Notes under the pieces: model-generated
What the model saw: only the letters and a program-made list of their open reading frames with translations
The model's database searches: none
What the model was told of the DNA's origin: nothing
Source of the DNA: Streptomyces aquilus
Lineage (GTDB): Bacteria > Actinomycetota > Actinomycetes > Streptomycetales > Streptomycetaceae
Length of the DNA stretch: 64,000 nucleotides
Direction: 5' to 3'
Assembly: GCF_003955715.1 (NCBI RefSeq)
Contig: NZ_CP034463.1
Coordinates: 1,302,001-1,366,000 of the forward strand
Made by a program: the position numbers and the translations under genes
In this document: piece by piece, positions 1 to 12,961 of the stretch
How positions within the stretch are numbered: position 1 is the first letter of the stretch
Layout of the letters: each line of letters starts with the position of its first letter

Positions 1-1
1 C

Positions 2-427
2 GCCGATGCGCGGCGCGCCATGGACGACATGCCGATGGAGGGCACCGACTACGGCACGGTCGTGTGGGACGTCGAGCGCGTGGTCGCGGCCGCCGAGGCG
101 GTCGCGCGGCGCGGGGAGCTGCTGCACACCGTCGCCGCGGTCGACAGGGGGGACGGGTCGATCGTCGGCTTCTCGGAACTGGTGGTGCCCGGTGACGGAC
201 TCGGCGACGGCCAGCACTACGGCACGGCCGTCCTGCCGGAACACCGCGGCCGGGGCCTGGCCCGCTGGATGAAGGCGACGTCGATCCGCCGGGCCCGCGA
301 GCGGCACCCGGACCTCGCCGGGCTCCTCACCGACACCGCGGACAGCAACGCGCCGATGCTCGCGGTCAACGCGGCCCTCGGCTACGTACCCACGCACAAG
401 GCGGTGGAGTACCAGCTGGACCTCTGA
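2..427 (+). CDS. GNAT-family N-acetyltransferase, C-terminal part (5' end outside window)
   Basis: The frame is open to the left window edge, so the true start lies outside. The visible 141 residues include a GNAT acetyl-CoA-binding signature (AVLPEHRGRGLARWMK) and a C-terminal segment with TADSNAPMLAVNAALGY, the usual 'N..M..vN..LGF' motif of two-domain GNAT proteins. An internal ATG at 20 has no convincing ribosome binding site and would delete the first GNAT half, so I treat this as a fragment. The substrate cannot be told. It converges on the next gene across a small hairpin. Confidence 0.8.
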   Translation, partial: ADARRAMDDMPMEGTDYGTVVWDVERVVAAAEAVARRGELLHTVAAVDRGDGSIVGFSELVVPGDGLGDGQHYGTAVLPEHRGRGLARWMKATSIRRARERHPDLAGLLTDTADSNAPMLAVNAALGYVPTHKAVEYQLDL

Positions 428-434
428 AAGGCTC

Positions 435-455
435 TCCCTCCTGGAAGGGGAGGGA
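435..455. terminator. Candidate bidirectional terminator hairpin
   Basis: A perfect 7-bp inverted repeat (TCCCTCC / GGAGGGA, 7-nt loop) lies in the 37-bp gap between two convergent genes. There is no T-tract, as is usual in Streptomyces. Confidence 0.4.
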
Positions 456-464
456 TCTCCTGGC

Positions 465-1403
465 TCAGGCCGCCGCCCGCAACGCCGCCAGACCCTCCCG
501 AGCCGACGGGTACACCGGCGTCCAGCCCAGCTCCCGCTCCGCCTTCGCGAGGGACACCCGCAAGGTCGACGCCATGATCGCGTGGGCGTACGACATCGGA
601 CGCATCATCCACAGCGGCACGGGCAGCGGCTTCGGGAGCCCGAACTCCTCCGCCACGGCGAGGAGATGGGCGCGGAACCCGAGGGGTGTGCGGTCGGCGA
701 TGTTGTAGGCCTGGCCGGGGCGGCCGTGCTCGACGGCGGCGACCATCGCGCGGGCCGCGTCGGTCAGCTCGACCCAGGGGACGACGTGGCCGTGGTCGGC
801 GGGGGCGGGCAGTTGCCGCCTGCGCAGCATGGGCAGGAGGTTCTCGGTGCCGCCGGGGCCGTAGAACGCGCCGTAGCGCAGGGCCACGCCTTCCAGACCG
901 GGGGCCTCGAAGGTCAGCCGCTCCTTGGTGCGCATCCCGGCGAGGTGCCGTTCGAACTCCGGGTTCGTGCCGCGCGGGCCGAAGGCGTCGTCCTCGGCGA
1001 GCTCCCGGTCGCCGTGGTCGCCGTAGCCGTATCCGAAGACCATCGACTCCGCGACGAAGCGGCGGGCGCCGGTCGCGTGCGCCGCCTCGATCAGATGGGC
1101 GGTGCCCTCGATGCGCAGCGCGTCGGTGGCGTACATGTCGCGGTGGCGCAGGGGCGGCTTGCTCAGGGCCGTCACGGCGTGGATCACCGTGTCGAAGTGG
1201 TGACCGTCGACGGCGCGGAGCACGGCGTCGCGGTCCATGAGGTCGGCCCGCACGCCGTTGTCCCGGCCGCGGCCGAGGCCCGTGACCTTGTGCCCGGCCT
1301 CGGTCAGAGCGCGCGTGATGTGCCGGCCGAGGACGCCACTGGCACCCGCGAGCAGGATGCTCTGGCTCTGGTTGTTGCTGGGTTCGCTCCGGTTCGTCGT
1401 CAT
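465..1403 (-). CDS. NAD(P)-dependent epimerase/dehydratase family protein (extended SDR)
   Basis: 312 residues with a Rossmann fold at the N terminus: the dinucleotide motif GASGVLGRH is near residue 19, followed by a beta-alpha pattern typical of extended short-chain dehydrogenases/NDP-sugar epimerases. A 'VALRYGAFYGPGG' segment matches the family's 'LR....YGPG' motif near residue 190. The expected catalytic YxxxK is not visible; where it should lie the chain reads HLAGMRTKER, with Lys but no Tyr four residues before it. It could be a redox-inactive or atypical member acting on a small metabolite. ATG start with GC-rich leader; no obvious operon partner. Confidence 0.8.
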   Translation of the reverse strand: MTTNRSEPSNNQSQSILLAGASGVLGRHITRALTEAGHKVTGLGRGRDNGVRADLMDRDAVLRAVDGHHFDTVIHAVTALSKPPLRHRDMYATDALRIEGTAHLIEAAHATGARRFVAESMVFGYGYGDHGDRELAEDDAFGPRGTNPEFERHLAGMRTKERLTFEAPGLEGVALRYGAFYGPGGTENLLPMLRRRQLPAPADHGHVVPWVELTDAARAMVAAVEHGRPGQAYNIADRTPLGFRAHLLAVAEEFGLPKPLPVPLWMMRPMSYAHAIMASTLRVSLAKAERELGWTPVYPSAREGLAALRAAA

Positions 1404-1459
1404 GACTCTGCGACGGATCGGGCGGGCACCGGCGTGACATCCCGTCCGCGTGCGCTACG

Positions 1460-2236
1460 TCACGGTGTGTACAGGTACGGCGTCGTCGTGGTCAGTGGTT
1501 CGAAGCCGAGGCGTTCCAGGATGGGGCGGCTGGTGCTCATGGCGTCGACCTGGAGGTAGCGGTAACCGCGTTCGGCGGCCTCGCGGGCCCGCAGGGCCAC
1601 CAGGGCGCGGTAGATGCCGCGACCACGCCAGGCCTCGACGGTTCCGCCGCCCCAGAGGCCGGCGAACCGGGTGCCGGGGACCAGCTCCATCCGGGCCGCG
1701 CTGACCGGGGTGTCCCCGTCCAGGGCGAGGACGGCGACCACGGTGTCGGGCTCGGCGGTGAGCTGGGCCAGCAGCTGGTGGCGCAGCCGGGTGCTGTCGG
1801 TGCCGAAGGCCGCCTCGTGCACGTCGGCCACGAGGTCGACACCGGCCTGGTCGGTGACGGGCAGGACGCGGATGCCCTCGGGCGGCTCGGCGTCCAGGGT
1901 GAGGTCGTTGACCTCACCGATCATCAGGGTCTCCTCGGGCTGCGGAGTGAACCCCGCCGACCGGAGCCGCTGTCCGAGGTCCACGGGCAGGTCGTGGCCG
2001 TAGAGCTTCCACTCGAACTCGTGACCGAGCCCGGAGTAGTACGCGATCTGCTCGGCGATCGCGGCGTCCGCGCTGCCGGCGTCCAGGTCGGACCACACCA
2101 CGCCGTTCCAGCCCTGCGCGGTGGAGACCTGCCGGACCACCTTCCCCGTCCGTTCGATCCGGGACTCCGGACTGTCCGGCTGCGCGCCCTCGCGCATGTC
2201 CCGGTCGTACAGGGCGAGCACCGCGTCATGATCCAT
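1460..2236 (-). CDS. GNAT-family N-acetyltransferase
   Basis: 258 residues beginning MDHDAVLALYDRDM. The start is the ATG at 2236, preceded by GGAG 9 nt upstream; the open frame runs much further upstream but only as antisense to the divergent deaminase gene. The C-terminal half is a GNAT domain: ELVPGTRFAGLWGGGTVEAWRGRGIYRALV holds the acetyl-CoA pyrophosphate-binding R/Q-x-x-G-x-G/A motif (RGRGIY), and ILERLGFEPL is the usual last strand. The N-terminal half resembles the divergent GNAT-like domain of two-domain acetyltransferases. Substrate unknown. Confidence 0.85.
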   Translation of the reverse strand: MDHDAVLALYDRDMREGAQPDSPESRIERTGKVVRQVSTAQGWNGVVWSDLDAGSADAAIAEQIAYYSGLGHEFEWKLYGHDLPVDLGQRLRSAGFTPQPEETLMIGEVNDLTLDAEPPEGIRVLPVTDQAGVDLVADVHEAAFGTDSTRLRHQLLAQLTAEPDTVVAVLALDGDTPVSAARMELVPGTRFAGLWGGGTVEAWRGRGIYRALVALRAREAAERGYRYLQVDAMSTSRPILERLGFEPLTTTTPYLYTP

Positions 2237-2336
2237 GGGTTCACTCCAGCACCAGGAGGCACCCGGGGCAACACCTTTACGGGCCATGATGTCCGGGAAC
2301 ATTCCGCAGCCGCCGGGTCGAGGAGGGCCGTACGCC

Positions 2337-2816
2337 ATGGTCGTGAAGGACGAGGAGCTGCCGTATCTGCGCCGCTGTGTGGAGCTGGCCGCCGAGGCGC
2401 TGGAGGCCGGGGACGAGCCGTTCGGCTCGGTCCTGGTGGGCGGGGACGGCGCGGTGCTCGCCGAGGACCACAACCGGGTCGCTTCGGGGGACCGCACCCG
2501 GCACCCCGAGTTCGAACTGGCGCGCTGGTCCGCGGCCCGCCTGACCCCCGAGGAGCGCGCGGCGGCGACCGTGTACACCTCCGGCGAGCACTGCCCGATG
2601 TGCGCCGCCGCGCATGCCTGGGTGGGTCTCGGCCGCATCGTGTACGCGGCCTCCTCCGAGCAACTGGTCGAGTGGCTCGGCCAGTTGGGCGTGCCCGCGG
2701 CTCCGGTGCGCGCCCTGCCGGTGCGGGAGGTGGCGCCGGACGTGGTGGTGGACGGGCCGGTGCCGGAGCTCACGGAGCAGGTGCACGCGCTGCACCGCCG
2801 CTTCCACGAGCGCTGA
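2337..2816 (+). CDS. Nucleoside deaminase (CMP/dCMP deaminase zinc-binding family)
   Basis: 159 residues. The zinc-dependent cytidine-deaminase-like fold is shown by H-P-E (first zinc ligand and catalytic Glu, in RTRHPEFELARW) and the second zinc motif CPMC (TSGEHCPMCAAAH). DEPFGSVLVGGDG matches the substrate-side 'PFGAVIV..G' segment of guanine/tRNA-adenosine deaminase relatives, so it may deaminate a purine or pyrimidine base. Two upstream in-frame ATGs exist, but the one at 2337 has a clear GAGGAGG 10 nt upstream. It is divergent from the GNAT gene and about 110 bp before the large c-di-GMP gene. Confidence 0.85.
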   Translation: MVVKDEELPYLRRCVELAAEALEAGDEPFGSVLVGGDGAVLAEDHNRVASGDRTRHPEFELARWSAARLTPEERAAATVYTSGEHCPMCAAAHAWVGLGRIVYAASSEQLVEWLGQLGVPAAPVRALPVREVAPDVVVDGPVPELTEQVHALHRRFHER

Positions 2817-2925
2817 GGCCCGTGGGGCTCGGGATGCAGCCGTCCGGGTGGGGTGCCTACGATCGGTAAGGATCCCGGACCAGGTAGGACGGCCCGGTCT
2901 CCGCCACAGGGGGAGGCGCTTGCCC

Positions 2926-5900
2926 TTGCTGCCGGCACATCGGCTGATGGCGGCCTACATCGCGGCGGTCGCCGTCGCCACCCTCGTCTATCTGACGGTT
3001 CCCAGCGCGCGTACGCCGTTGTGGGCCGTCATCGGACTCTCCGGTGTCGCCGCCGTACTCACCGGTAGCCGGCTGCACCGCCCCGCGCACCGCTGGCCCT
3101 GGTGGGTGCTCGCCGCCGGGCTGCTGACCTTCACCGCGGGCGACACGTACTACAACGTGATGGAGGACTACTTCGGCGCCTCCAACCCGTTCCCCTCCCC
3201 CGCGGACGCCTGCTACCTCGCCACCTACCCGCTCTTCGCGATCGGCCTGTCCGGCCTGGTCCGCTACCGGTGGTCGGGCCACGACCTGCCGAGCCTGCTC
3301 GACGCGCTCATCCTCACCAGCGGTCTCGCGCTGCCGGTGTGGGTGTACCTGGTGCAGCCGCTGACCGAGGTGGAGGGGCAGACCTGGCAGCAGCGGGCCA
3401 TCAGCATCGCCTACCCGCTCGGTGACGTGCTGGTCCTCGCCCTGCTGGCCCGGCTGCTCACCCCCAGCCCGGTGGACGGCCACAACCGGTCGGTGCAGCT
3501 GCTGTTCGTCGGCACCGCGACACTGCTGGGCTTCGACATCGCGTACGGCATCCTCCAGCTGAACTCCATGTGGGAGACCGGCACCCTGCTGGACACCGGG
3601 TGGATCGTCTTCTACACGGCGTGGGGACTGGCCGCCCTGCATCCGTCGATGGTGGCGCTGACCGCGGCCGTACCGCAGAAGGTGTCGCTGCTCCCCCGGC
3701 CGCGCCGGCTGCTCCTGCTGGCCGCCGCGACCCTCATCGCGCCCGCCGTCCTGCTCCACGAGGGGCTCACCGGCTCACCCCACCACGCCGCCGTGATCGC
3801 CGGCTTCTCCAGTGTGCTGTTCCTGCTGGTCATCCTGCGGCTGGCGGGCATCGTCGTGGTCCACCGCAAGGCGGTGGCGCGGGAGCTGGCACTGCGCCGG
3901 GCGGGGGCCTCGCTGGTCTCGGCGGTACGGCTGGAGGAGGTCGCCCGGTCCTGCGAGACGGCCGTCGACACCCTGCTCGGCCCCACGGTGCGCCACCGCA
4001 CCCGGCTGCTGCTCGCCGAGCGGGCCGCGGCGTTCACCCCCGACGGCAGCCGCATGATGTCCCGCGCCGAGATCGACGGCGTCCTCGCCGCCGGCTTCGG
4101 GGGGCTGCCCGCCGTCCTCGCCTGCCCGATGACACCGCCCGACCGGCCCGCGGCACAGATCCCGGGGGTGCTGCTGGTCGGCGGCCCGCCCCAGCCGCTG
4201 CACGAGACGCGGGCCTCCCTGGAGATCCTCGCCTCCCACGCGGGCCTGGCCGTCGAGCGCGTCGCGCTGCGCCAGGAGATCGTCCGCCGCGAGAACGAGG
4301 CCTACTTCCGTACGCTCGTGCGGAACACCTCCGACGTCATCCTGATCGTCGAGGACGACAACACCGTCCGCTACGCCAGCCCGTCCGCGGCCTCCGTCTT
4401 CGGCCACACGAACCTCGTCGGGGCCTCCCTGCCCGACCTGGTCGACCCGCGCGACCGCAACCGGGCGGCCCGGCAGCTCGACGCCGTACGGGAGAGCGGG
4501 CCACGGGCCACCCACGACCACTGGTGGGTGCGGCACCGGGACGGCCGGGTCGAGGTGGAGGTGCGGTGCAGCGACTTCCGCGACGAGCGCACGGTCGCCG
4601 GACTCGTGGTCACCCTGCGCGACGTGACCGAGCAGCGGCGCCTGGAGCACGAGCTGACCCAGCGGGCCTTCCACGACTCCCTGACCGGCCTGCCCAACCG
4701 GACCCTGCTGCTGGAGCGCATCGAGCGGGCCCTGCTGCGCGGCCGCCGCGAGTCCTCCCTGACCTGCCTGCTCTTCATCGACCTGGACGACTTCAAGCTG
4801 GTCAACGACACCCTCGGGCACTCGGCGGGCGACCATCTGCTGATGGCCGTCGGCAGCCGGCTGTCCAAGGCGCTGCGGCGCACCGACACGGCGGCCCGGC
4901 TCGGCGGCGACGAGTTCGCGGTGCTGATGGAGGACGCGCGCGAGCCGCTGGACGCGGAGCTGCTGGCGGCACAGGTGATCCAGACGCTGACCCGGCCGTT
5001 CGTGCTCGGCGAGGAGTCGGTGACCGTCTCCGCGAGCGTCGGGGTGGCCACGGCCCGGGACAGCACCGACGCGGAGGAACTGCTGGGCCACGCCGACCTG
5101 GCGCTGTACGCGGCGAAGGCGGCCGGCAAGCGGCAGTGGCGGCGCTTCCAGCCACTGCTGCACAGCCGCATGGTCGAGCGGCACGACCTCCAGAGCCGGC
5201 TCGCCCAGGCGGTCGCCGGAAAGGAGTTCGCGCTGCGCTACCAGCCCGTCGTGGACATCACCGCGGGCGAGGTGGTCGGCTTCGAGGCGCTGGTGCGCTG
5301 GCCGTCCCCGCGCCGCCGGCCGGTGTCGCCGGAGCAGTTCATCTCGCTGGCCGAGGAGACCGGACACATCGCGGTGCTGGGCTCCTGGGTGCTGGAGAAC
5401 GCGGTCCAGGACATCGCGGGCCTGCAACGGCTGCCGCGGCCGGGCGAGCCGCCATACGTCAGCGTCAACGTCTCCGCCCGGCAGTTCCGCGACGCCGGTT
5501 TCGTCGACCAGGTCGGCGAGGCGCTCAGGACGCCCGGGCTGGCGCCGGGGTCACTCCAACTGGAGCTCACCGAGACGCTGTTGCTGCGTCACGACATCCA
5601 GATCCAGGGAGTGCTCCAGGCGCTCAAGGAGCTGGGCGTGCACATCGCCGTGGACGACTTCGGCACCGGCTTCTCCTCGCTGCGCTATCTGCGGGACTTC
5701 CCGATCGACGTGCTGAAGATCGACAAGACGTTCATCGACGACATCACACGCGACCCGCAGCAGGTCGCGCTCGTCGAGGGCATCGTGCGCATCGCCGACA
5801 CGCTCGGGATGCAGGTGATCGCCGAGGGGATCGAGGAGCCCGGGCAGCGGGACCTGCTGGCGGGGATGGGGTGCCGGTTCGGGCAGGGCTATCTGTTCGC

Positions 5901-7230
5901 CCGGCCGATGACGGTGCAGCAGAGCGAACGGGTACTGCGGGAGCCGGAAGGCGTCCGGAGCGCGACCGCCGGCAACGGGGCGCCCGCCGCCGGGAAGACG
6001 CCGGTGCGGGGTGAACGGGCGGTGCGCTGGGCCGACCTGGAGCATCTGCGGCGTACCAGCCTGATGAGCGACGCGGTCCTCGACGAGGTGCGGGGCCGGC
6101 ACATCCGCAGCCGCGGCCACTGGCTGATCGACTTCGCGTCCTGCAACTACCTCGGCTTCGACTGGGACCCGGAGATCGCCGCCCGCATCGAGCCCATGGT
6201 GCGCCGATGGGGCACCCACCCGAGCTGGTCGCGGCTCATCGGCAGCCCGCGGCCTTACCCCGAGATCGAGGAGCGGCTGGCCGAACTCCTGGGCGCCCCC
6301 GACACGTTGCTGCTGCCGACGCTCACCCTCATCCACTCCTCCGTCATCCCGGTGCTCGCCGAGGGCGGCCATGTCCTCGTCGAGGCGGCCGCGCACCGGA
6401 CCGTGTACGACGGGTGCGTCGCCGCCCGCGGCCAGGGCGCCACCCTGCGCCGCTTCCACGCCGAACGTCCCGAGGAACTGGACGCGTTGCTCGCCGCGGT
6501 GCCCGGCAGCGGCCCCCGCCTGGTGTGCCTCGACGGCGTCAACAGCATGAGCGGCAACGTGCCCGACCTGCCCGCGCTGGCGGCCGTGTGCCGCAGCCGG
6601 GGCGCGACGCTCTACGTGGACGACGCGCACGGCTTCGGGGTGCTCGGCGAGCGCGGCCCCGACGAGAGCTGCCCGTACGGTTCGCGCGGCAACGGCGTGC
6701 TGCGGCACACCGGGGAGACGTACGACGGGATCGTCCTCACCGCCGGTTTCTCCAAGGCGTACTCCTCGCTGCTGGCCTTCCTCGCGCTGCCGACCGGGCT
6801 CAAGGAGCGGCTCAAGACGGCCGCGGCCCCCTATCTGTACTCGGGACCGTCGCCGACCGCGTCCCTCGCGACCGTGCTGGCCGGTCTGGACGTCAACGAG
6901 CGTCGCGGTGACGTCATACGGGCCGAGCTGTACCGCAAGACGGTCCGGGTGCTCGACCATCTCGACGACCTGGAGGTGCTGACCCTCAACAGGGACCGGC
7001 TGCCCATCGTGGAGATCCCGCTGGCGGACCCGTCCGACCTCGACGCGGTCGCCGCGTTCCTGTGGGAGGAGGGCATCTACGTGACCCTCGCCGCCTATCC
7101 CCTCGTCCCCCGTGACCGGGTCGGTTTCCGCGTCCAGATCACGGCGCTCAACTCCGACGAGGACATCGAGCGGCTCACGGCGACGCTGTCGCGGCTGGCC
7201 GCCAGGTTCCGGCTGCGGTCGAAGGGGTGA
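2926..7230 (+). CDS. Membrane PAS-GGDEF-EAL c-di-GMP protein fused to an alpha-oxoamine synthase domain
   Basis: A single uninterrupted 1434-residue protein. Residues 1-310 hold about eight hydrophobic segments (membrane sensor). A linker leads to a PAS domain (about 457-572), an intact diguanylate cyclase (GGDEF at 660-664), and an intact phosphodiesterase (EAL at 787-789, with DDFGTGFSSLRYL). After a low-complexity linker (about 993-1030) comes a full PLP-dependent alpha-oxoamine synthase domain like 8-amino-7-oxononanoate synthase or CqsA: DDAHGFGVLGERG for the cofactor Asp/His and Lys1277 in GFSKAYSS as the probable Schiff-base lysine. c-di-GMP enzymes and AONS enzymes are normally separate. 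Start chosen at TTG 2926, 9 nt after GGGAGG; ATG 2947 is the alternative. The following methyltransferase is probably translationally linked. Confidence 0.85.
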   Translation: MLPAHRLMAAYIAAVAVATLVYLTVPSARTPLWAVIGLSGVAAVLTGSRLHRPAHRWPWWVLAAGLLTFTAGDTYYNVMEDYFGASNPFPSPADACYLATYPLFAIGLSGLVRYRWSGHDLPSLLDALILTSGLALPVWVYLVQPLTEVEGQTWQQRAISIAYPLGDVLVLALLARLLTPSPVDGHNRSVQLLFVGTATLLGFDIAYGILQLNSMWETGTLLDTGWIVFYTAWGLAALHPSMVALTAAVPQKVSLLPRPRRLLLLAAATLIAPAVLLHEGLTGSPHHAAVIAGFSSVLFLLVILRLAGIVVVHRKAVARELALRRAGASLVSAVRLEEVARSCETAVDTLLGPTVRHRTRLLLAERAAAFTPDGSRMMSRAEIDGVLAAGFGGLPAVLACPMTPPDRPAAQIPGVLLVGGPPQPLHETRASLEILASHAGLAVERVALRQEIVRRENEAYFRTLVRNTSDVILIVEDDNTVRYASPSAASVFGHTNLVGASLPDLVDPRDRNRAARQLDAVRESGPRATHDHWWVRHRDGRVEVEVRCSDFRDERTVAGLVVTLRDVTEQRRLEHELTQRAFHDSLTGLPNRTLLLERIERALLRGRRESSLTCLLFIDLDDFKLVNDTLGHSAGDHLLMAVGSRLSKALRRTDTAARLGGDEFAVLMEDAREPLDAELLAAQVIQTLTRPFVLGEESVTVSASVGVATARDSTDAEELLGHADLALYAAKAAGKRQWRRFQPLLHSRMVERHDLQSRLAQAVAGKEFALRYQPVVDITAGEVVGFEALVRWPSPRRRPVSPEQFISLAEETGHIAVLGSWVLENAVQDIAGLQRLPRPGEPPYVSVNVSARQFRDAGFVDQVGEALRTPGLAPGSLQLELTETLLLRHDIQIQGVLQALKELGVHIAVDDFGTGFSSLRYLRDFPIDVLKIDKTFIDDITRDPQQVALVEGIVRIADTLGMQVIAEGIEEPGQRDLLAGMGCRFGQGYLFARPMTVQQSERVLREPEGVRSATAGNGAPAAGKTPVRGERAVRWADLEHLRRTSLMSDAVLDEVRGRHIRSRGHWLIDFASCNYLGFDWDPEIAARIEPMVRRWGTHPSWSRLIGSPRPYPEIEERLAELLGAPDTLLLPTLTLIHSSVIPVLAEGGHVLVEAAAHRTVYDGCVAARGQGATLRRFHAERPEELDALLAAVPGSGPRLVCLDGVNSMSGNVPDLPALAAVCRSRGATLYVDDAHGFGVLGERGPDESCPYGSRGNGVLRHTGETYDGIVLTAGFSKAYSSLLAFLALPTGLKERLKTAAAPYLYSGPSPTASLATVLAGLDVNERRGDVIRAELYRKTVRVLDHLDDLEVLTLNRDRLPIVEIPLADPSDLDAVAAFLWEEGIYVTLAAYPLVPRDRVGFRVQITALNSDEDIERLTATLSRLAARFRLRSKG

Positions 7231-7262
7231 GTGTCGGTGACGGCCCAAGAGGTGAGTGGGTG

Positions 7263-7997
7263 ATGACGACGCACAACGACGACGTGGACTGGGACCGTTG
7301 GCCGGTCGCGGACTACCTCGCGGAGAACTACCGCGAGCTGCACCCCTCGGACGCCGCCGTCATCGCCCACCACTCGGCCTTCTACCGCCGCTTCGCACCG
7401 GGCGAGATCGCGCGGTCGGTGGAGTTCGGCGCGGGACCCAATCTCTACCCGCTGATCCTCGCGTCGGCCGCCAGCCGCCGCATCGAGGCCGTCGAGGCGG
7501 GCGCCGGCAACATCGCCTACCTGGAGCGGCAGATCCTGTGCGGGCCGGAGGCGAGCTGGCTGCCCTTCCACGCGTTGTGCCGACGCCTCAACCCCGACCT
7601 GCCCGCCACGCTGGCCAGGTCGCTCGCGCCCGTGCACGTGGTCCACCAGGACGTCCGCGCCCTCGAACGGGGCGGATACGGGCTGGCGTCGATGCACTTC
7701 GTCGCGGAGGGGGCCACCGAGGACCGTGAGGAGTTCGCGGACTTCTGCCGCGCGTTCGTGCGGTGCGTCGCGCCGGGCGGGAGTCTGGTGGCGGCGTTCA
7801 TGGAGAACTTGCCGACGTACCGGATCGGGCCGGCGTCGCGGTGGCCGGGCTGCCCCGTGGACCCGGCGACCGTGAGGGCCGTATTCGCTCCGCTGACCGT
7901 CGAATTGACGGTCCATCACATCGATTCCGATCCGACGCTGCCGGACTACGGGGACTCGGGGATGGTGCTCCTGACGGCTACCGTGGCGGCTCGGTGA
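7263..7997 (+). CDS. SAM-dependent methyltransferase-like protein
   Basis: 244 residues. Near residue 55 VEFGAGPNLYPLILA is a class I SAM-binding motif I, and RRIEAVEAGAGNIAYLERQI is motif II-like. LASMHFVAEGATEDREEFADFC and VRCVAPGGSLVAAFMENL fit the post-motif strands. It resembles the NNMT/PNMT-like methyltransferases of Streptomyces (the SCO2525-type family), from memory only. AAGAGG lies 10 nt before the ATG; GTG 7260 is an equal alternative. The gene begins 32 nt after the fusion gene, so it probably shares its transcript and may methylate a product of the oxoamine synthase. That link is inference. Confidence 0.75.
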   Translation: MTTHNDDVDWDRWPVADYLAENYRELHPSDAAVIAHHSAFYRRFAPGEIARSVEFGAGPNLYPLILASAASRRIEAVEAGAGNIAYLERQILCGPEASWLPFHALCRRLNPDLPATLARSLAPVHVVHQDVRALERGGYGLASMHFVAEGATEDREEFADFCRAFVRCVAPGGSLVAAFMENLPTYRIGPASRWPGCPVDPATVRAVFAPLTVELTVHHIDSDPTLPDYGDSGMVLLTATVAAR

Positions 7998-8110
7998 GCA
8001 CCGCGGAGGCCCCACCAACGGCTGTCGCAGCACCTCGGTGAGCACCGCGGAGGCCCCACCAACGGCTGTCGCAGCACCTCGGTGAGCGCGGCGGAGGCCC
8101 CGCCGGTCGC
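7991..8110. repeat. 44-bp tandem direct repeat, two exact copies plus a degenerate third
   Basis: Copies start at 7991, 8035 and 8079 with a 44-bp period. The first two are identical; the third diverges after about 15 bases. The first copy contains the stop codon of the methyltransferase gene, so the array forms its 3' untranslated region, between convergent genes. Confidence 0.9.
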
Positions 8111-8150
8111 CATTCCGGCAGGGTCTTCCGTCGTCCTCGCGGGAAGGGGG

Positions 8151-8798
8151 TCAGCGCTCCGCCCCGGGGCGGAACCGCCGGTACAGCGCCGCTCCGCCGA
8201 GCAGCAGCGCGGCACTGCCCGCCGCGGCCGGGAGCGTGAGATCGGTGCCGGTGTGGGCGAGGGAGGCCACGGGCTGCCGGGGCGCGGGCACGGTGGCCTT
8301 GGGGCCCGGGTGCGCCTTGGGCGGCACGGACGGCTTCGGGGCCGGGTGCCGCGGGGTCTCGCCGGGTGCGTCGCCGGGGGTGTTGACGGACTCGTTGCCG
8401 GTGGCCGGGTTGCCGACGCCGACCACGTTCACGCTGTTGCCCGTGATGTTCACGGGCAGGTGGACGGGGAGCTGGACGCCGTTGCCGGAGATCACGCCGG
8501 GCGAGTCCTGCTCGTCGCCCTGGGCCGTGGCGCCCGCGGGTGCCCCGGAGGCCGCCCCGCTCTCGTCGGCGCAGCTGTTGCCCGCGGCCGGGTTCAGGAG
8601 CCCCACCACGTTCACGGTGTTGCCGCACACGTCGACCGGTACGTGCACCGGCAGCTGGATCGTGTTGCCGGAGATCACCCCGGGCGAATCGGCCGCGGCA
8701 CCGTCCGCCGAGGAATCGGCGTACGCCGGCATCGACACAGCCATGGCGCCGGACACCGCGGCGACGGCGATCACACCGTTTCGGGTAACCCGTTTCAT
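8151..8798 (-). CDS. Long chaplin with two chaplin domains and sortase-sorting signal
   Basis: 215 residues: signal peptide (MKRVTRNGVIAVAAV...PAYA), two chaplin domains each with the 'SPGVISGN..QLPVH.PV' core, a Pro-rich spacer, a sortase motif LAHTG near residue 181, a hydrophobic helix (LTLPAAAGSAALLLGGAALY) and a basic tail. This is the architecture of ChpA/B/C, which are anchored to the wall by class E sortase and help form the amyloid rodlet layer of aerial hyphae. The first chaplin domain carries the Cys pair (DVCGNTV ... GNSCADE); the second has none (NITGNSV ... GNESV). A BldN-like promoter lies just upstream. Confidence 0.95.
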   Translation of the reverse strand: MKRVTRNGVIAVAAVSGAMAVSMPAYADSSADGAAADSPGVISGNTIQLPVHVPVDVCGNTVNVVGLLNPAAGNSCADESGAASGAPAGATAQGDEQDSPGVISGNGVQLPVHLPVNITGNSVNVVGVGNPATGNESVNTPGDAPGETPRHPAPKPSVPPKAHPGPKATVPAPRQPVASLAHTGTDLTLPAAAGSAALLLGGAALYRRFRPGAER

Positions 8799-8848
8799 AG
8801 GTTCCCTGCCTTCCAGACTTGGTCACGGGCAGTCGCCCGCACCGGATA

Positions 8849-8876
8849 GAACGCGGGTGAACCAATCCGAGTTATG
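8849..8876 (-). promoter_or_regulatory. BldN-type ECF sigma promoter for the chaplin gene
   Basis: Read on the minus strand: CATAAC, 16 nt, CGTTCT. The published sigma-BldN consensus as I recall it is CGTAAC-N16-CGTTGA, giving 5/6 and 4/6 matches with exact spacing. The expected start is about 45 nt upstream of the chaplin ATG. Chaplin genes are known BldN targets. Confidence 0.6.
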
Positions 8877-9070
8877 GCTTATCGGCCTTTCACCCCATCG
8901 AGCGGCACGGTTGTCGAACTAGCAGTAAAACCGTCGAATGCGTACGGAGCGGCGCAGGATAAGGCACTTCATATGATCCCGCCCGCCCGGAGGCGCCCCT
9001 TCCGGACGCCGCCTATCGTGAGCGTGGGTGCCGTTCTCCCGGTCCGCGACGGGCGCCCTTGGAGGCATCG

Positions 9071-10666
9071 ATGCTGGCCAAGCTGTCTGGGCGGCCCCTG
9101 CTCCGGCACTGCGCGGTCACCGGGGCGGTCGGACTGGCGCTGCTGGGCGCGGGGCTGCCGACGGTGACCACGGACAAGGACAAGGACGAGCCGGACCTGT
9201 CGCGGTTCTACGACCAGAAGGTCACGTGGTCCAGGTGCAAGGGCCTGGACGCGCCCAAGGACCTTCAGTGCGGCAAGGTCACCGTCCCCCTCGACTACTC
9301 CCGGCCCAAGGCGGGCACGCTCGAACTGGCCCTGGCCCGATACCGGGCGACCGGCGATTCCCGGGGTTCGCTGCTGCTGAACTTCGGCGGTCCGGGCGGC
9401 GCCGGCGTCAGCGAACTGGCCGCCGGTGGCGACGAGTTCATGGGCCTGACCAAGGGCTACGACGTGGTGTCCTTCGATCCGCGCGGCGTCGGCCGGTCCT
9501 CGCCGGTCAGTTGCGGGGACGGCACCGACGAGGCGCTGGCGGCGACGGACGACGGTTCCGAGGTGAGCGACGATCCGCGGTCCGTGCTCACGCAGTTGAA
9601 GAGGGCCGCCGCCGCGTGCGCCGAGCACTCCGGCCCCGTCCTGCCCCACATAGGCACCGTCGACGCGGCTCGCGACCTCGACGTGATGCGCCAGGCACTC
9701 GGCGACAAGAAGCTCAACTACCTCGGTTTCTCCTACGGAACCCGGCTCGGCGCGGTGTACGCGGCCCAGTTCCCGGGGAAGGTGGGGCGGTTGGTCCTCG
9801 ACGGCGTCGACACCCTGACCGAGCCCATGACGGAGCAGGCCCTGGTGGGCGCCGAAGGGCAGCAGAAGGCGCTGGACGACTTCATCGACTGGTGCGCCGA
9901 GGACATCGCCTGTCCGTTCGGCCAGGACCCGCGCAGCGCCCGGGACCAGGTGGTACGGCTGATCGACTCCCTGGACGAGGACCCGGTGCCGACCGACTGG
10001 GGCGGCACCTTCTCCGGCCAGGACCTCGTGGGCGCCATCTCCCAGGCCCTCTACAGCAGGGAGCTGTGGCCGTCCCTGGAGCGGGCCGTCGCCCAGCTCG
10101 TCGAGGACGGCGACACGCGTGGCGTCCTGAGCTTCACGGGCGGCGGCTACGCGCTGCCGCGCCGGGCGGCCGGCGACGACGGCGACGGCGGGCTCGCCGA
10201 CGAGGAGGACGTCCCGCTGGACAACCTGCCGGCCGCGCTGATGGCGATCAACTGCGCGGACGACCCGGACCGCCCCGGGGCCGACGAGATCACCCGGAAC
10301 CTCGGCCGGCTGCGCGCCGAGTACGAGGAGGTCTCCCCCGTCTTCGGCCGCTACCGCCTGACCGAGGTCCTGATGTGCTACGGCCGCCCCAAGGGCACCG
10401 ACTACATCCGCGAGGACGTCCGGGACGTCGACAGCCCGAAGATGCTGCTTGTCGGCACCCGCGGCGACCCGGCGACGCCGTACCGCTGGACGGTGGAGAC
10501 CGCGAAGCGGCTGGGCGACGCGGCCGTGGTGCTCGACAACAAGGGCGACGGCCACACCGGGTACGGCTCCTCGAAGTGCGTGCAGCGCAAGGTCGACACC
10601 TTCCTGCTGTACGGCTCCCTGCCGCCCAGCGGCAGCTCCTGCGGCTCGGAGGAGGACGACCGGTGA
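9071..10666 (+). CDS. Secreted alpha/beta hydrolase, tripeptidyl aminopeptidase (SlpD/Tap-like) family
   Basis: 531 residues. A hydrophobic N-terminal segment (HCAVTGAVGLALLGAGL) indicates export. The alpha/beta hydrolase core shows an oxyanion strand LLLNFGGPGGAG, the nucleophile elbow GFSYGT, an acid residue in VGTRGDPATP and the catalytic His in GDGHTGYGSSKCV. The paired cysteines (e.g. SRCKGL, LQCGKV, INCADD, SKCVQ) and the C-terminal TAP-like domain match Streptomyces mycelium-associated tripeptidyl aminopeptidases, which trim N-terminal tripeptides from secreted proteins. GGAGG lies 5 nt before ATG 9071. The 270-bp gap before it carries the divergent chaplin promoter. Confidence 0.9.
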   Translation: MLAKLSGRPLLRHCAVTGAVGLALLGAGLPTVTTDKDKDEPDLSRFYDQKVTWSRCKGLDAPKDLQCGKVTVPLDYSRPKAGTLELALARYRATGDSRGSLLLNFGGPGGAGVSELAAGGDEFMGLTKGYDVVSFDPRGVGRSSPVSCGDGTDEALAATDDGSEVSDDPRSVLTQLKRAAAACAEHSGPVLPHIGTVDAARDLDVMRQALGDKKLNYLGFSYGTRLGAVYAAQFPGKVGRLVLDGVDTLTEPMTEQALVGAEGQQKALDDFIDWCAEDIACPFGQDPRSARDQVVRLIDSLDEDPVPTDWGGTFSGQDLVGAISQALYSRELWPSLERAVAQLVEDGDTRGVLSFTGGGYALPRRAAGDDGDGGLADEEDVPLDNLPAALMAINCADDPDRPGADEITRNLGRLRAEYEEVSPVFGRYRLTEVLMCYGRPKGTDYIREDVRDVDSPKMLLVGTRGDPATPYRWTVETAKRLGDAAVVLDNKGDGHTGYGSSKCVQRKVDTFLLYGSLPPSGSSCGSEEDDR

Positions 10667-10760
10667 GCGCCTTCACCGTCCTCGGGTGAACCCGTCCGCC
10701 GCGGGGCCGCTGCTCGCGCTCGGACTGGCGGACGGTGGACCCGCCGGCTTCGCGCGCGGG

Positions 10761-11189
10761 TCACGCCTCCCAGTACGCCAACCGTCGCAGCGCCTGGGCG
10801 GCCTGGCCGAAGCCGTCGTCGCCGAGCACGGCACGCAGCTCCGCGTTGAAGCGGTCGATCTCCGGCTGCGCGGCGGTCAGCGCCCGCTCACCCGCCTCGG
10901 TCAGCTCCAGGACCACGGCCCGGTGTTCAGTCGGGTGCGCCGACTTCGCGACGAGCCCCGCCGCGGTGAGCCGGGCGACGAGCGCGGTGACCGCCGACTC
11001 GCGCAGGCCGAGCGTGCGGGCGAGCTGCTGCTGGGTCTGCCGGGGCTCGTCGCGCACCGCGAACAGCGCGCCGATCTGGGCCGTGGTCACCCCCGCGGCG
11101 GCCACGCAGCGCCGGTCGGCGCTCGTCCGCAGACGGTGGGCCGCCCGCTGGAGCAGGAAGTAGAGGCGCAGGTCGGGCTCGGCGGACAT
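10761..11189 (-). CDS. MarR-family transcriptional regulator
   Basis: 142 residues with a winged helix-turn-helix: GVTTAQIGALFAVRDEPRQTQQQLARTLGLRESAVTALVARLTAAGLVAKSAHPTEHRAV-type layout, where the wing (HPTEHRAVVLELTEAG) is the classic MarR 'D.R...v.LT..G'. The start at 11189 was chosen because the upstream in-frame extension covers the operator and the divergent gene's start. It probably represses the divergent thioesterase gene and itself through the palindrome at 11227-11248. Ligand unknown; MarR proteins commonly sense phenolic or aromatic compounds. Confidence 0.9.
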   Translation of the reverse strand: MSAEPDLRLYFLLQRAAHRLRTSADRRCVAAAGVTTAQIGALFAVRDEPRQTQQQLARTLGLRESAVTALVARLTAAGLVAKSAHPTEHRAVVLELTEAGERALTAAQPEIDRFNAELRAVLGDDGFGQAAQALRRLAYWEA

Positions 11190-11226
11190 GGGCCGATGTT
11201 GACAGAGGACACTGGCTCGCGCCACC

Positions 11227-11248
11227 CTCACTTCACTGATGAAGTGAG
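11227..11248. promoter_or_regulatory. Perfect palindromic operator, probable MarR site
   Basis: Nine-bp arms (CTCACTTCA / TGAAGTGAG) separated by 4 nt, in the 67-bp divergent region between the MarR gene and the thioesterase gene. Size and position match MarR operators. Confidence 0.65.
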
Positions 11249-11256
11249 ATGACGGG

Positions 11257-11700
11257 GTGAGCGGCGTGAGCGACACGATGGATCTGGAGCTGGCCCGGAA
11301 GGTCCTCGGAGAGCAGCCCTTCAGCAGACTGCTGGGCGCCCGGGTGACGGCCTTCGGGGACGGTGAGGCCACCCTGGAACTGGACATCCGAGAGGAGCTG
11401 CTCCAGCAGTACGGCTTCGTCCACGGCGGGGTGCTCGCCTACGCGGCCGACAACACCCTCACACTCGCCGCGGCGACCGTCGCGGGGCCGGGCCTGATCA
11501 CGTCCGGGTTCACCGTCGACTATCTGCGTCCGGCGACCGGCACGGTCCTGCGGGCGCACGGCCGGGTGGTGCGGGCCGGCCGCACCCGGGTGGTGACCCG
11601 CTGCGACGTCGTCACGGTCGACGACACCGGCGCGGAGAGCCTGTGCGCGGTCGCGCAGGGCAACATCGCCCTGCTCCAGGGACCGGTAGGGAAAGGCTAG
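11257..11700 (+). CDS. PaaI-type hotdog-fold thioesterase
   Basis: 147 residues or slightly fewer. The hotdog signature is GFVHGGVLAYAADNTLTLAAAT, equivalent to the PaaI/4HBT 'g.vHGG.la.l.D....aa' helix with the catalytic Asp in AADN; a strand TVDYLRPATGTVLRAHGRVV follows. These enzymes hydrolyse acyl- or phenylacetyl-CoA thioesters in the cytoplasm. GTG 11257 is the longest start; GTG 11266 and ATG 11278 are possible and none has a strong ribosome binding site. It is divergent from, and probably controlled by, the MarR gene, and ends 1 nt short of the convergent arcA stop. Confidence 0.85.
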   Translation: MSGVSDTMDLELARKVLGEQPFSRLLGARVTAFGDGEATLELDIREELLQQYGFVHGGVLAYAADNTLTLAAATVAGPGLITSGFTVDYLRPATGTVLRAHGRVVRAGRTRVVTRCDVVTVDDTGAESLCAVAQGNIALLQGPVGKG

Positions 11701-11701
11701 T

Positions 11702-12961
11702 TCAGAACTCGACCGGGTCCCGCACGATCGGGCAGGTCATGCAGTGGCCGCCGCCCCGGCCGCGGCCCAGCTCGGCGCCGACGATGGTGATGACCTCGAT
11801 GCCGGCCTTGCGCAGCAGGGTGTTGGTCTGGGTGTTGCGGTCGTAGGTGAAGACCACGCCGGGTTCCAGGGCGACCGCGTTGTTGCCGCTGTCCCACTGC
11901 TGGCGCTCGGAGGCGTACACGTCCCCGCCGGTCTCCACGACCCGCAGCCCGGGCAGTCCGAGCGCCTTGGCGACGACGTCGACGAACGGGGTCGAGCCCT
12001 CGTCGATCAGTTCGATGCCGGGCGCCTTGTCGCCGGGGCGCAGGGAGAAGGTGTGGACGCCGTCCATGATGGTCGGGTAGAGGGTGACCAGGTCGCGGTC
12101 GGCGAAGGTGAAGACGGTGTCGAGGTGCATCGCGGAGCGCAGTTTCGGCATGCCGGCGACGATGACGTGCTCGGCGGCGCCGTTCTTGAACAGCGCGGCG
12201 GCCACCTGGGTGATGGCCTGGCGTGAGGTGCGCTCGCTCATGCCCATCAGGACGACGCCGTTGCCGACGGGCATGATGTCTCCGCCCTCGAACGTGGCCT
12301 GCCCCCAGTCGAGTTCGGGGTCACCCCACCAGACGGTGGAGCCCACGTAGTCGGGGTGGAAGCTGTAGACGGCCTTCATGAGCAGCGTCTCGTCGTGCCG
12401 GGCGGGCCAGTACAGCGGGTTGAGGGTGAGGCCGCCGTAGAGCCAGCACGTGGTGTCGCGGGTGTAGAGGGTGTTGGGCAGCGGCGGCATCAAGTACTCG
12501 CGTACGCCGGTGGATTCCCGGGCGAGGTCGAGATAGCCGGAGCGGAAGTCCTCGGGCAGGTCGGTGGTGGCCAGGCCGCCGATCAGGTATTTCGCGAGGC
12601 GTTCGGGTTCGAGGGTCTCCAGGTACGCGCGGGTCTGCTCGACGAGGCCGAGGCCGACCTCGTTGGCGACGATCTTCCGGTCCAGGAGCCAGTCCCGGGC
12701 GCCCGGCACCGCCATGGTCTGGGCGAGCAGGTCGTGCAACTCGACGACCTCGACGTCCCGTTCGCGCAGCTTGTTGACGAAGTCGGCGTGGTCGCGCTGG
12801 GCGTTCTCCACCCACATGACGTCGTCGAAGAGCAGGTCGTCGGAGTTGGTGGGGGTGAGCCTGCGATGGGCGAGCCCGGGGGCGCAGACCAGCACCTTGC
12901 GCAGTCTGCCGACCTCGGAGTGGACGCCGTACGCGGGACGGGTGTCTTGACTACTGGTCAC
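11702..12961 (-). CDS. arcA: Arginine deiminase
   Basis: 419 residues, the normal length for the enzyme that converts L-arginine to citrulline and ammonia. Diagnostic motifs: the N-terminal [70 protein letters not shown], and the C-terminal catalytic cysteine in [12 protein letters not shown]. It lies 18 nt after arcD, in the order arcD-arcA, so the two form an uptake-and-deimination operon. No ornithine transcarbamylase (arcB) or carbamate kinase (arcC) gene is next to it, so ATP formation would need genes elsewhere; the pair may serve ammonia release or acid tolerance. Confidence 0.97.

Follow-up and report, generated by a model that had tools for sequence, protein, structure and literature searches.

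A Streptomyces cyclic di-GMP enzyme fused to a predicted alpha-oxoamine synthase, and its possible descent from an actinobacterial synthase-sensor module

Results

Near the start of a 64,000-nucleotide stretch of Streptomyces aquilus DNA (NZ_CP034463.1, positions 1,302,001 to 1,366,000; hereafter the window), the forward strand carries a single frame of 1434 amino acids (aa; 2926-7230), whose translation has its sole stop at its end and joins a membrane sensor domain, a PAS domain, the GGDEF and EAL domains of cyclic di-GMP (c-di-GMP) turnover, and an alpha-oxoamine-synthase (AONS) domain (Table 1). A preliminary description of the window had proposed this arrangement, which translation and Pfam bear out, and the positions it gave for GGDEF (660-664), EAL (from 787), and the pyridoxal phosphate (PLP)-binding Lys1277 proved exact on recheck. 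Both c-di-GMP synthesis and hydrolysis are predicted from the intact GGDEF and EAL motifs, and every metal and catalytic residue checked in the EAL domain is intact. Translation likely begins at TTG 2926, which is preceded by GGGGGAGG; ATG 2947, the start picked by a codon-model gene caller, is an alternative.

Table 1. Positions of the fusion gene, its parts, and its neighbours in the window
Feature	Position	Strand	Remarks
Fusion coding sequence: 10-transmembrane (TM) sensor, PAS, GGDEF, EAL, AONS	2926..7230	+	1434 aa from TTG; ATG 2947 possible
Shine-Dalgarno-like GGGGGAGG	2909..2916	+	9 nt before TTG 2926; from sequence
Membrane sensor domain, about 10 helices	2947..3921	+	AlphaFold2 model; common to histidine kinases beside stand-alone AONS genes
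PAS domain, residues 466-572 (Pfam range 460-572)	4321..4641	+	Pfam PF08448, PF00989, PF13426
GGDEF domain, residues 581-736	4666..5133	+	Motif GGDEF 660-664; I-site RRTD 651-654 (RxxD); Pfam, motif check
EAL domain, residues 758-994	5197..5907	+	EAL motif from 787; Pfam, motif check
AONS domain, residues 1033-1434	6022..7227	+	Pfam Aminotran_1_2 on 1106-1419
Codon of PLP-binding Lys1277	6754..6756	+	Aligned with E. coli BioF lysine; invariant in 70/70 rows
S-adenosylmethionine-dependent methyltransferase gene	7227..7997	+	GTG start overlaps fusion end by 4 bases
Chaplin gene, two ChpA-C stretches	8151-8798	-	Two genes downstream; syntenic in many, not all, fused Streptomyces loci
Cytidine/deoxycytidylate-deaminase-like gene	2235-2816	+	Upstream of fusion; syntenic in one Streptomyces group

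The C-terminal domain shares its catalytic residues with E. coli BioF and Kbl and its fold with serine palmitoyltransferase (SPT), ThAOS, Kbl, and BioF, from which it differs in sequence (~22-28% identity) and in features of its own, namely an Arg or Lys after the stacking His (68 of 70 aligned rows) and an invariant HPxW-x-R stretch. Six positions (H125, S175, D200, H203, K245, and R370, domain numbering) are invariant in all 70 rows; by analogy with BioF, they are the PLP lysine, the PLP-contacting Asp, His, and Ser, the stacking His, and the carboxylate Arg. The modelled domain adopts the AONS-superfamily fold, with SPT and ThAOS among its closest solved folds, and residues and predicted fold together assign it to that superfamily, for which a Claisen condensation is predicted. 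Membership in individual families was rejected: the domain scored 176 bits for BioF (TIGR00858 cut-off 426.45), 142.9 and 125.6 bits for SPT (NF047599 and NF047600, cut-offs 500 and 640), 123.1 bits for Kbl (glycine C-acetyltransferase; NF005394, cut-off 460), and 63.2 bits for CqsA/LqsA (NF005526, cut-off 428; three relatives 66-93 bits). The suggestion of the preliminary description, a possible autoinducer synthase joined to a c-di-GMP enzyme, is partly supported: the AONS domain is complete and genomically coupled with the sensor (below), and it falls outside the CqsA/LqsA family.

An AONS domain inside a signalling enzyme might instead be catalytically dead and adjust c-di-GMP turnover as a regulatory domain that binds PLP or an amino acid. 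Regulatory domains derived from fold type I enzymes exist (MocR/GabR), and a sensor could well be joined to a signalling enzyme, yet the catalytic residues are invariant across the alignment, and a regulatory role makes little sense for a domain that is also encoded on its own and that relatives carry fused to a fatty acyl-AMP ligase (FAAL) and an acyl carrier protein (ACP). We give this alternative little credence.

The preliminary description had suggested a search with the C-terminal part for conserved fusion architecture. It was run with residues 1010-1434 against fusion-sized proteins (0.55-1.75 times the length of the window protein). Of 7991 candidates scored, 517 matched, and all 120 matches listed, the window protein included, contain PF00155, PF00563, and PF00990 (the aminotransferase fold of AONS, EAL, and GGDEF). 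The AONS part was found at E≤1e-100 in 41 of 246 Streptomyces genomes (here and below, counts are over phylogenetically non-independent genomes), with an uninterrupted frame of >1400 aa in 32, a frame of 421-684 aa in seven, internal stops in one (G224), and a fragment in one (G009). All 41 also possess the N-terminal part (E≤1e-130), and the seven stand-alone AONS frames, without exception, lie directly behind a TM-GGDEF-EAL gene on the same strand; four further Streptomyces genomes have the N-terminal part without AONS, G030 being more distant (52%). The fused architecture thus recurs in Streptomyces, and homologues are not always two genes. That the frame is an artefact of a lost stop, an indel, or a misassembly is scarcely conceivable: nothing found favours it, and the long frames in 32 of the 41 AONS-bearing genomes exclude it, as do the 119 other proteins listed that combine these domains.

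The fusion is old in Streptomyces. A scan that detects close relatives only supplied 52 named loci (one, from Rhizobium at 23%, is merely a distant AONS relative). Of the 72 Streptomyces-type loci, 57 are fused; among the rest, ten are split pairs, three are broken, one lies at a contig edge, and one is a fragment from a Parafrankia contig. The "split" label of L069 stems solely from a contig that starts there. In the AONS tree and an independent GGDEF-EAL tree (FastTree, several inner nodes at 0.75-0.88 support), fused genes occupy the early Streptomyces branches and order-level gene pairs come next outside; in the GGDEF-EAL tree, L192, which has no AONS, stands there as well. The outgroup of the AONS tree is not one clade, and the root of the GGDEF-EAL tree was placed on an arbitrary member. 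Nested inside fused lineages are the split pairs L065, L162, and L159+L161 and six others that group together, and TM-GGDEF-EAL genes without AONS (L164, L165, L166, and L193), which have probably lost the synthase and kept the presumed receptor, are nested among fused and split ones. The simplest reading is one fusion in a Streptomyces ancestor, followed by several splits or losses. Broken fusion copies were also seen in some Streptomyces (L190, L191, L077, and L078), as was a 238-aa piece on a Parafrankia soli contig (L076), 86% identical to the window AONS, that reflects recent transfer or contamination. Plasmid carriage was rejected (11 records, all <60% identity).

Beyond Streptomyces, the synthase is encoded separately. 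AONS was detected at E≤1e-90 in 22 of 396 genomes of the phylum. Twenty of these lie outside Streptomyces and span seven further families; the open frames that hold it there reach at most 1168 aa, and the AONS genes as called have 330-587 aa (gene neighbours were called with our own codon-model caller rather than a standard one). A gene with the window protein's sensor domain lies near AONS in all 20 distant genomes, the nearest at most 2239 bases away, and in one of them the contig ends inside that gene. Since these genomes hold one to seven sensor-domain matches each (E≤1e-8), chance would place one within 5 kb in an expected 0.144 of 20 genomes. Within 8 kb of AONS, a TM-GGDEF-EAL gene was found in 15 of the 20 loci, a TM-histidine kinase in seven, and both in three. 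The genes differ in order and orientation from locus to locus (upstream, downstream, or divergent), so the module is not one frozen block. At the order level, all 13 non-Streptomyces AONS genomes carry a TM-GGDEF-EAL gene immediately upstream of AONS, with an overlap of 1 or 4 bases.

The sensor also tracks the synthase at genome scale. At E≤1e-40 it occurs in 43 of the 396 genomes, i.e., 22/22 with AONS and 21/374 others (Fisher p 1.5e-24, without correction for relatedness; the sensor query came from an AONS locus). When the surroundings of the 21 were checked, three (G594, G719, and G667) proved to have AONS after all, that of G594 being cut by a contig end, with 70% identity to whichever of two AONS queries matched it better. 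Every AONS-family genome in the sample thus has the sensor; the sensor itself is not exclusive to AONS. The outputs attached to the sensor beside AONS are GGDEF-EAL, HisKA/HATPase, or HisKA_3, and one HisKA/HATPase sensor carries a receiver and is followed by a LuxR-type regulator gene.

These data bear on whether the fusion is one of convenience, in which co-expressed operon genes with unrelated jobs (e.g., a BioF-like biotin step) were joined by chance. Overlapping pairs of the order-level kind fuse easily, and several Streptomyces have re-split the genes, both of which agree with this idea. However, the coupling holds across many families with shuffled gene orders, the BioF model reached just 176 of 426 bits, and the window's genome has four further AONS-like matching places, one grouping with E. 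coli Kbl; we regard a chance fusion as quite unlikely.

The sensor domain was modelled confidently by AlphaFold2 as about ten long helices (pLDDT 91.0, pTM 0.87). No Pfam family matched the window copy, and MASE5 matched weakly in six of 77 sensor-domain members scanned. Three sensor domains gave no CqsS-like NCBIfam match at E≤1, a result obtained with no direct CqsS/LqsS comparison. Separately, an 1824-aa protein (L257:3277-8751) combines the same sensor with four PAS_3 stretches, a kinase, two receivers, and an Hpt domain; no AONS lies on its short contig.

The AONS domain of G719 and G667 forms the last 400 residues of proteins of 1076 and 1115 aa. Their front pairs an AMP-binding domain with a phosphopantetheine carrier, and its best matches include fatty acyl-AMP ligases; the neighbouring gene encodes a TM-GGDEF-EAL protein in G719, whereas in G667 it encodes a TM hybrid kinase. 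Such single-chain FAAL-ACP-AONS proteins (L260:2730-5960 and L263:9459-12806) represent a second kind of fusion of the presumed signal synthase. The AONS of L260_1 and L263_6 (39-40% identical to the window's) stands beside the same sensor domain, whereas the fatty acyl-AMP ligase and carrier are N-terminal additions and the sensor is not fused.

These relatives matter for the chief rival explanation, according to which the AONS domain makes a sphingoid-like or other amino-ketone lipid or building block for the cell's own use, and GGDEF-EAL merely adjusts this lipid or metabolite enzyme, or the messenger, through local contact, with no intercellular signal. SPT and ThAOS are among the closest solved folds, the methyltransferase adjoining the fusion suits a biosynthetic pathway, and FAAL-ACP-AONS resembles the set of ACP and acyl-ACP synthetase genes that accompany SPT in sphingolipid synthesis, as described in the available part of PMC9386255. 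Against it, the constant partner is a membrane sensor with changing output (GGDEF-EAL or histidine kinase), often with an exporter of the major facilitator superfamily (MFS); beyond FAAL-ACP, no lipid-pathway gene appeared among the few neighbours annotated (most were not); and the SPT models stay far under their cut-offs. We consider this explanation unlikely, while the most serious of the alternatives.

Among neighbouring genes, the methyltransferase scored below both of its cut-offs (123 of 240 bits for the SCO2525 family and 21.3 of 25 for NNMT/PNMT/TEMT). A relative was found in 53 of the 57 fused Streptomyces-type loci, and none was seen in the distant modules. An MFS exporter gene is present in ten of the 20 distant loci, and in fused lineages L185 and L198 an MFS gene sits between fusion and methyltransferase; the L173 copy matched MFS_3 (94.2 bits, cut-off 27) and reached 221.6 bits for TIGR00900 (cut-off 319.6) and 103.7 of 324 for EntS, as a putative exporter of the DHA3 type. 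A link to the deaminase or chaplin gene was rejected, with synteny partial in Streptomyces and other loci adjoining sugar-nucleotide, trehalase-like, or other genes. Likewise, PADLOC gave no match for a defence system, and the sole match to a BldD-like box in 1-12000 lies far from the fusion at 11233. Elsewhere in this genome, GGDEF genes at ~67.8 kb and 10.326 Mb have identical scores, mirrored places, and opposite orientation; from these, the chromosome seems to bear terminal inverted repeats.

The protein is probably an orthologue of CdgF. In the parts of PMC6205966 available, S. venezuelae has ten chromosomal c-di-GMP genes, eight with GGDEF, and cdgF (vnz02140/sven0451) encodes a membrane-bound 10TM-PAS-PAC-GGDEF-EAL protein with complete key residues. 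The eight GGDEF places of G015 (0.488, 2.843, 4.336, 4.369, 4.956, 5.579, 5.605, and 7.477 Mb) match in order and proportions vnz 02140 (cdgF), 12760, 19760, 19920, 22740, 25525, 25635, and 33675, from which we infer that G015 is S. venezuelae. Its first place, the cdgF position, is the fusion itself (frame of 1647 aa; GGDEF-EAL part 69% identical to the window's). The window protein shares with CdgF the 10TM-PAS-GGDEF-EAL architecture and all key residues. As published, CdgF differs: a text search of the main text of PMC6205966 returned no PLP or synthase domain, the main texts of the open-licence Streptomyces CdgF papers searched do not mention an aminotransferase, and the available part of an S. 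ghanaensis paper lists no cdgF orthologue. Within the open-licence papers searched, the PLP domain of CdgF appears to be so far unreported, and no GGDEF/EAL-AONS fusion is described in the titles and abstract openings of the matches listed from the open-licence literature.

Discussion

We give roughly even chances to the reading that the window protein descends, as one chain, from an actinobacterial signalling module of two to four genes, and that the product of its synthase is sensed by its own membrane domain. The AONS domain would condense an amino acid and an acyl-CoA or acyl-ACP thioester to a lipophilic alpha-amino ketone, which in Streptomyces the overlapping methyltransferase would probably tailor. 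The product may then leave the cell, in many relatives via the EntS/Mef-like MFS exporter encoded alongside, and be sensed by the N-terminal ten-helix domain, which would set GGDEF synthesis against EAL breakdown and hence the c-di-GMP level that controls development. An alpha-amino ketone is suggested by analogy with family chemistry, as CqsA converts aminobutyrate and decanoyl-CoA to aminotridecanone in vitro (available part of PMC3376566) and ThAOS yields alpha-aminoketones (available part of PMC10230504).

Such a system would resemble CqsA/CqsS, with another receptor family, a c-di-GMP output, and a fusion in the Streptomyces ancestor. In CqsA/CqsS and LqsA/LqsS, an AONS-fold synthase is genetically paired with a membrane receptor (PMC3376566, in the part available); here, the sensor gene lies nearby in 20/20 distant and 13/13 order-level loci and is fused in the window, as a putative receptor. 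The differences are that the window domain scores below the alpha-hydroxyketone-synthase cut-off, that GGDEF-EAL replaces or accompanies the kinase output, that the hosts are Actinobacteria, and that in Streptomyces synthase and receptor are fused. The main reason for preferring a synthase-receptor pair is that the constant partner of AONS is the sensor and not the c-di-GMP domain.

Several observations weigh against this preference. First, no AONS was found in the stretches examined for 18 of the 43 sensor-bearing genomes, some of them short contigs, and some Streptomyces (G103, G110, and G182) keep the TM-GGDEF-EAL gene without AONS; since the sensor occurs without AONS, it need not sense the AONS product. 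Second, the sensor has no sequence relative among solved structures and its model no Foldseek match at E≤0.001, and without a recognisable solved relative ligand binding lacks structural support. Third, no such MFS gene lies close by in 10/20 distant, 13/13 order-level, and 70/72 Streptomyces-type loci. Finally, in S. venezuelae no developmental phenotype followed from cdgF deletion in the conditions employed (PMC6205966).

With these points included, the fused or neighbouring synthase and sensor suggest an unrecognised self-sensing communication system. Somewhat more tentatively, and with less than even confidence, we propose that the single protein is a full circuit that makes an acyl-aminoketone signal with its C-terminal domain, reads the extracellular level through its N-terminal membrane domain, and sets c-di-GMP accordingly, and that it belongs to a large undescribed class of actinobacterial synthase-receptor systems with interchangeable c-di-GMP and histidine-kinase outputs.

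Conclusions

Published work on cdgF probably dealt with a gene that bears a third, unreported enzyme domain. According to the available part of PMC6205966, c-di-GMP controls Streptomyces development, and the signals perceived by its PAS, PAC, or GAF enzymes remain unknown; a synthase built into a c-di-GMP enzyme is a testable candidate for such an input. As of 2012, AONS-derived signalling was apparently confined to aquatic gamma-proteobacteria, although other environmental bacteria also had homologous clusters (PMC3376566). If the proposed circuit is true, such signalling would extend to Actinobacteria, with a direct second-messenger output.

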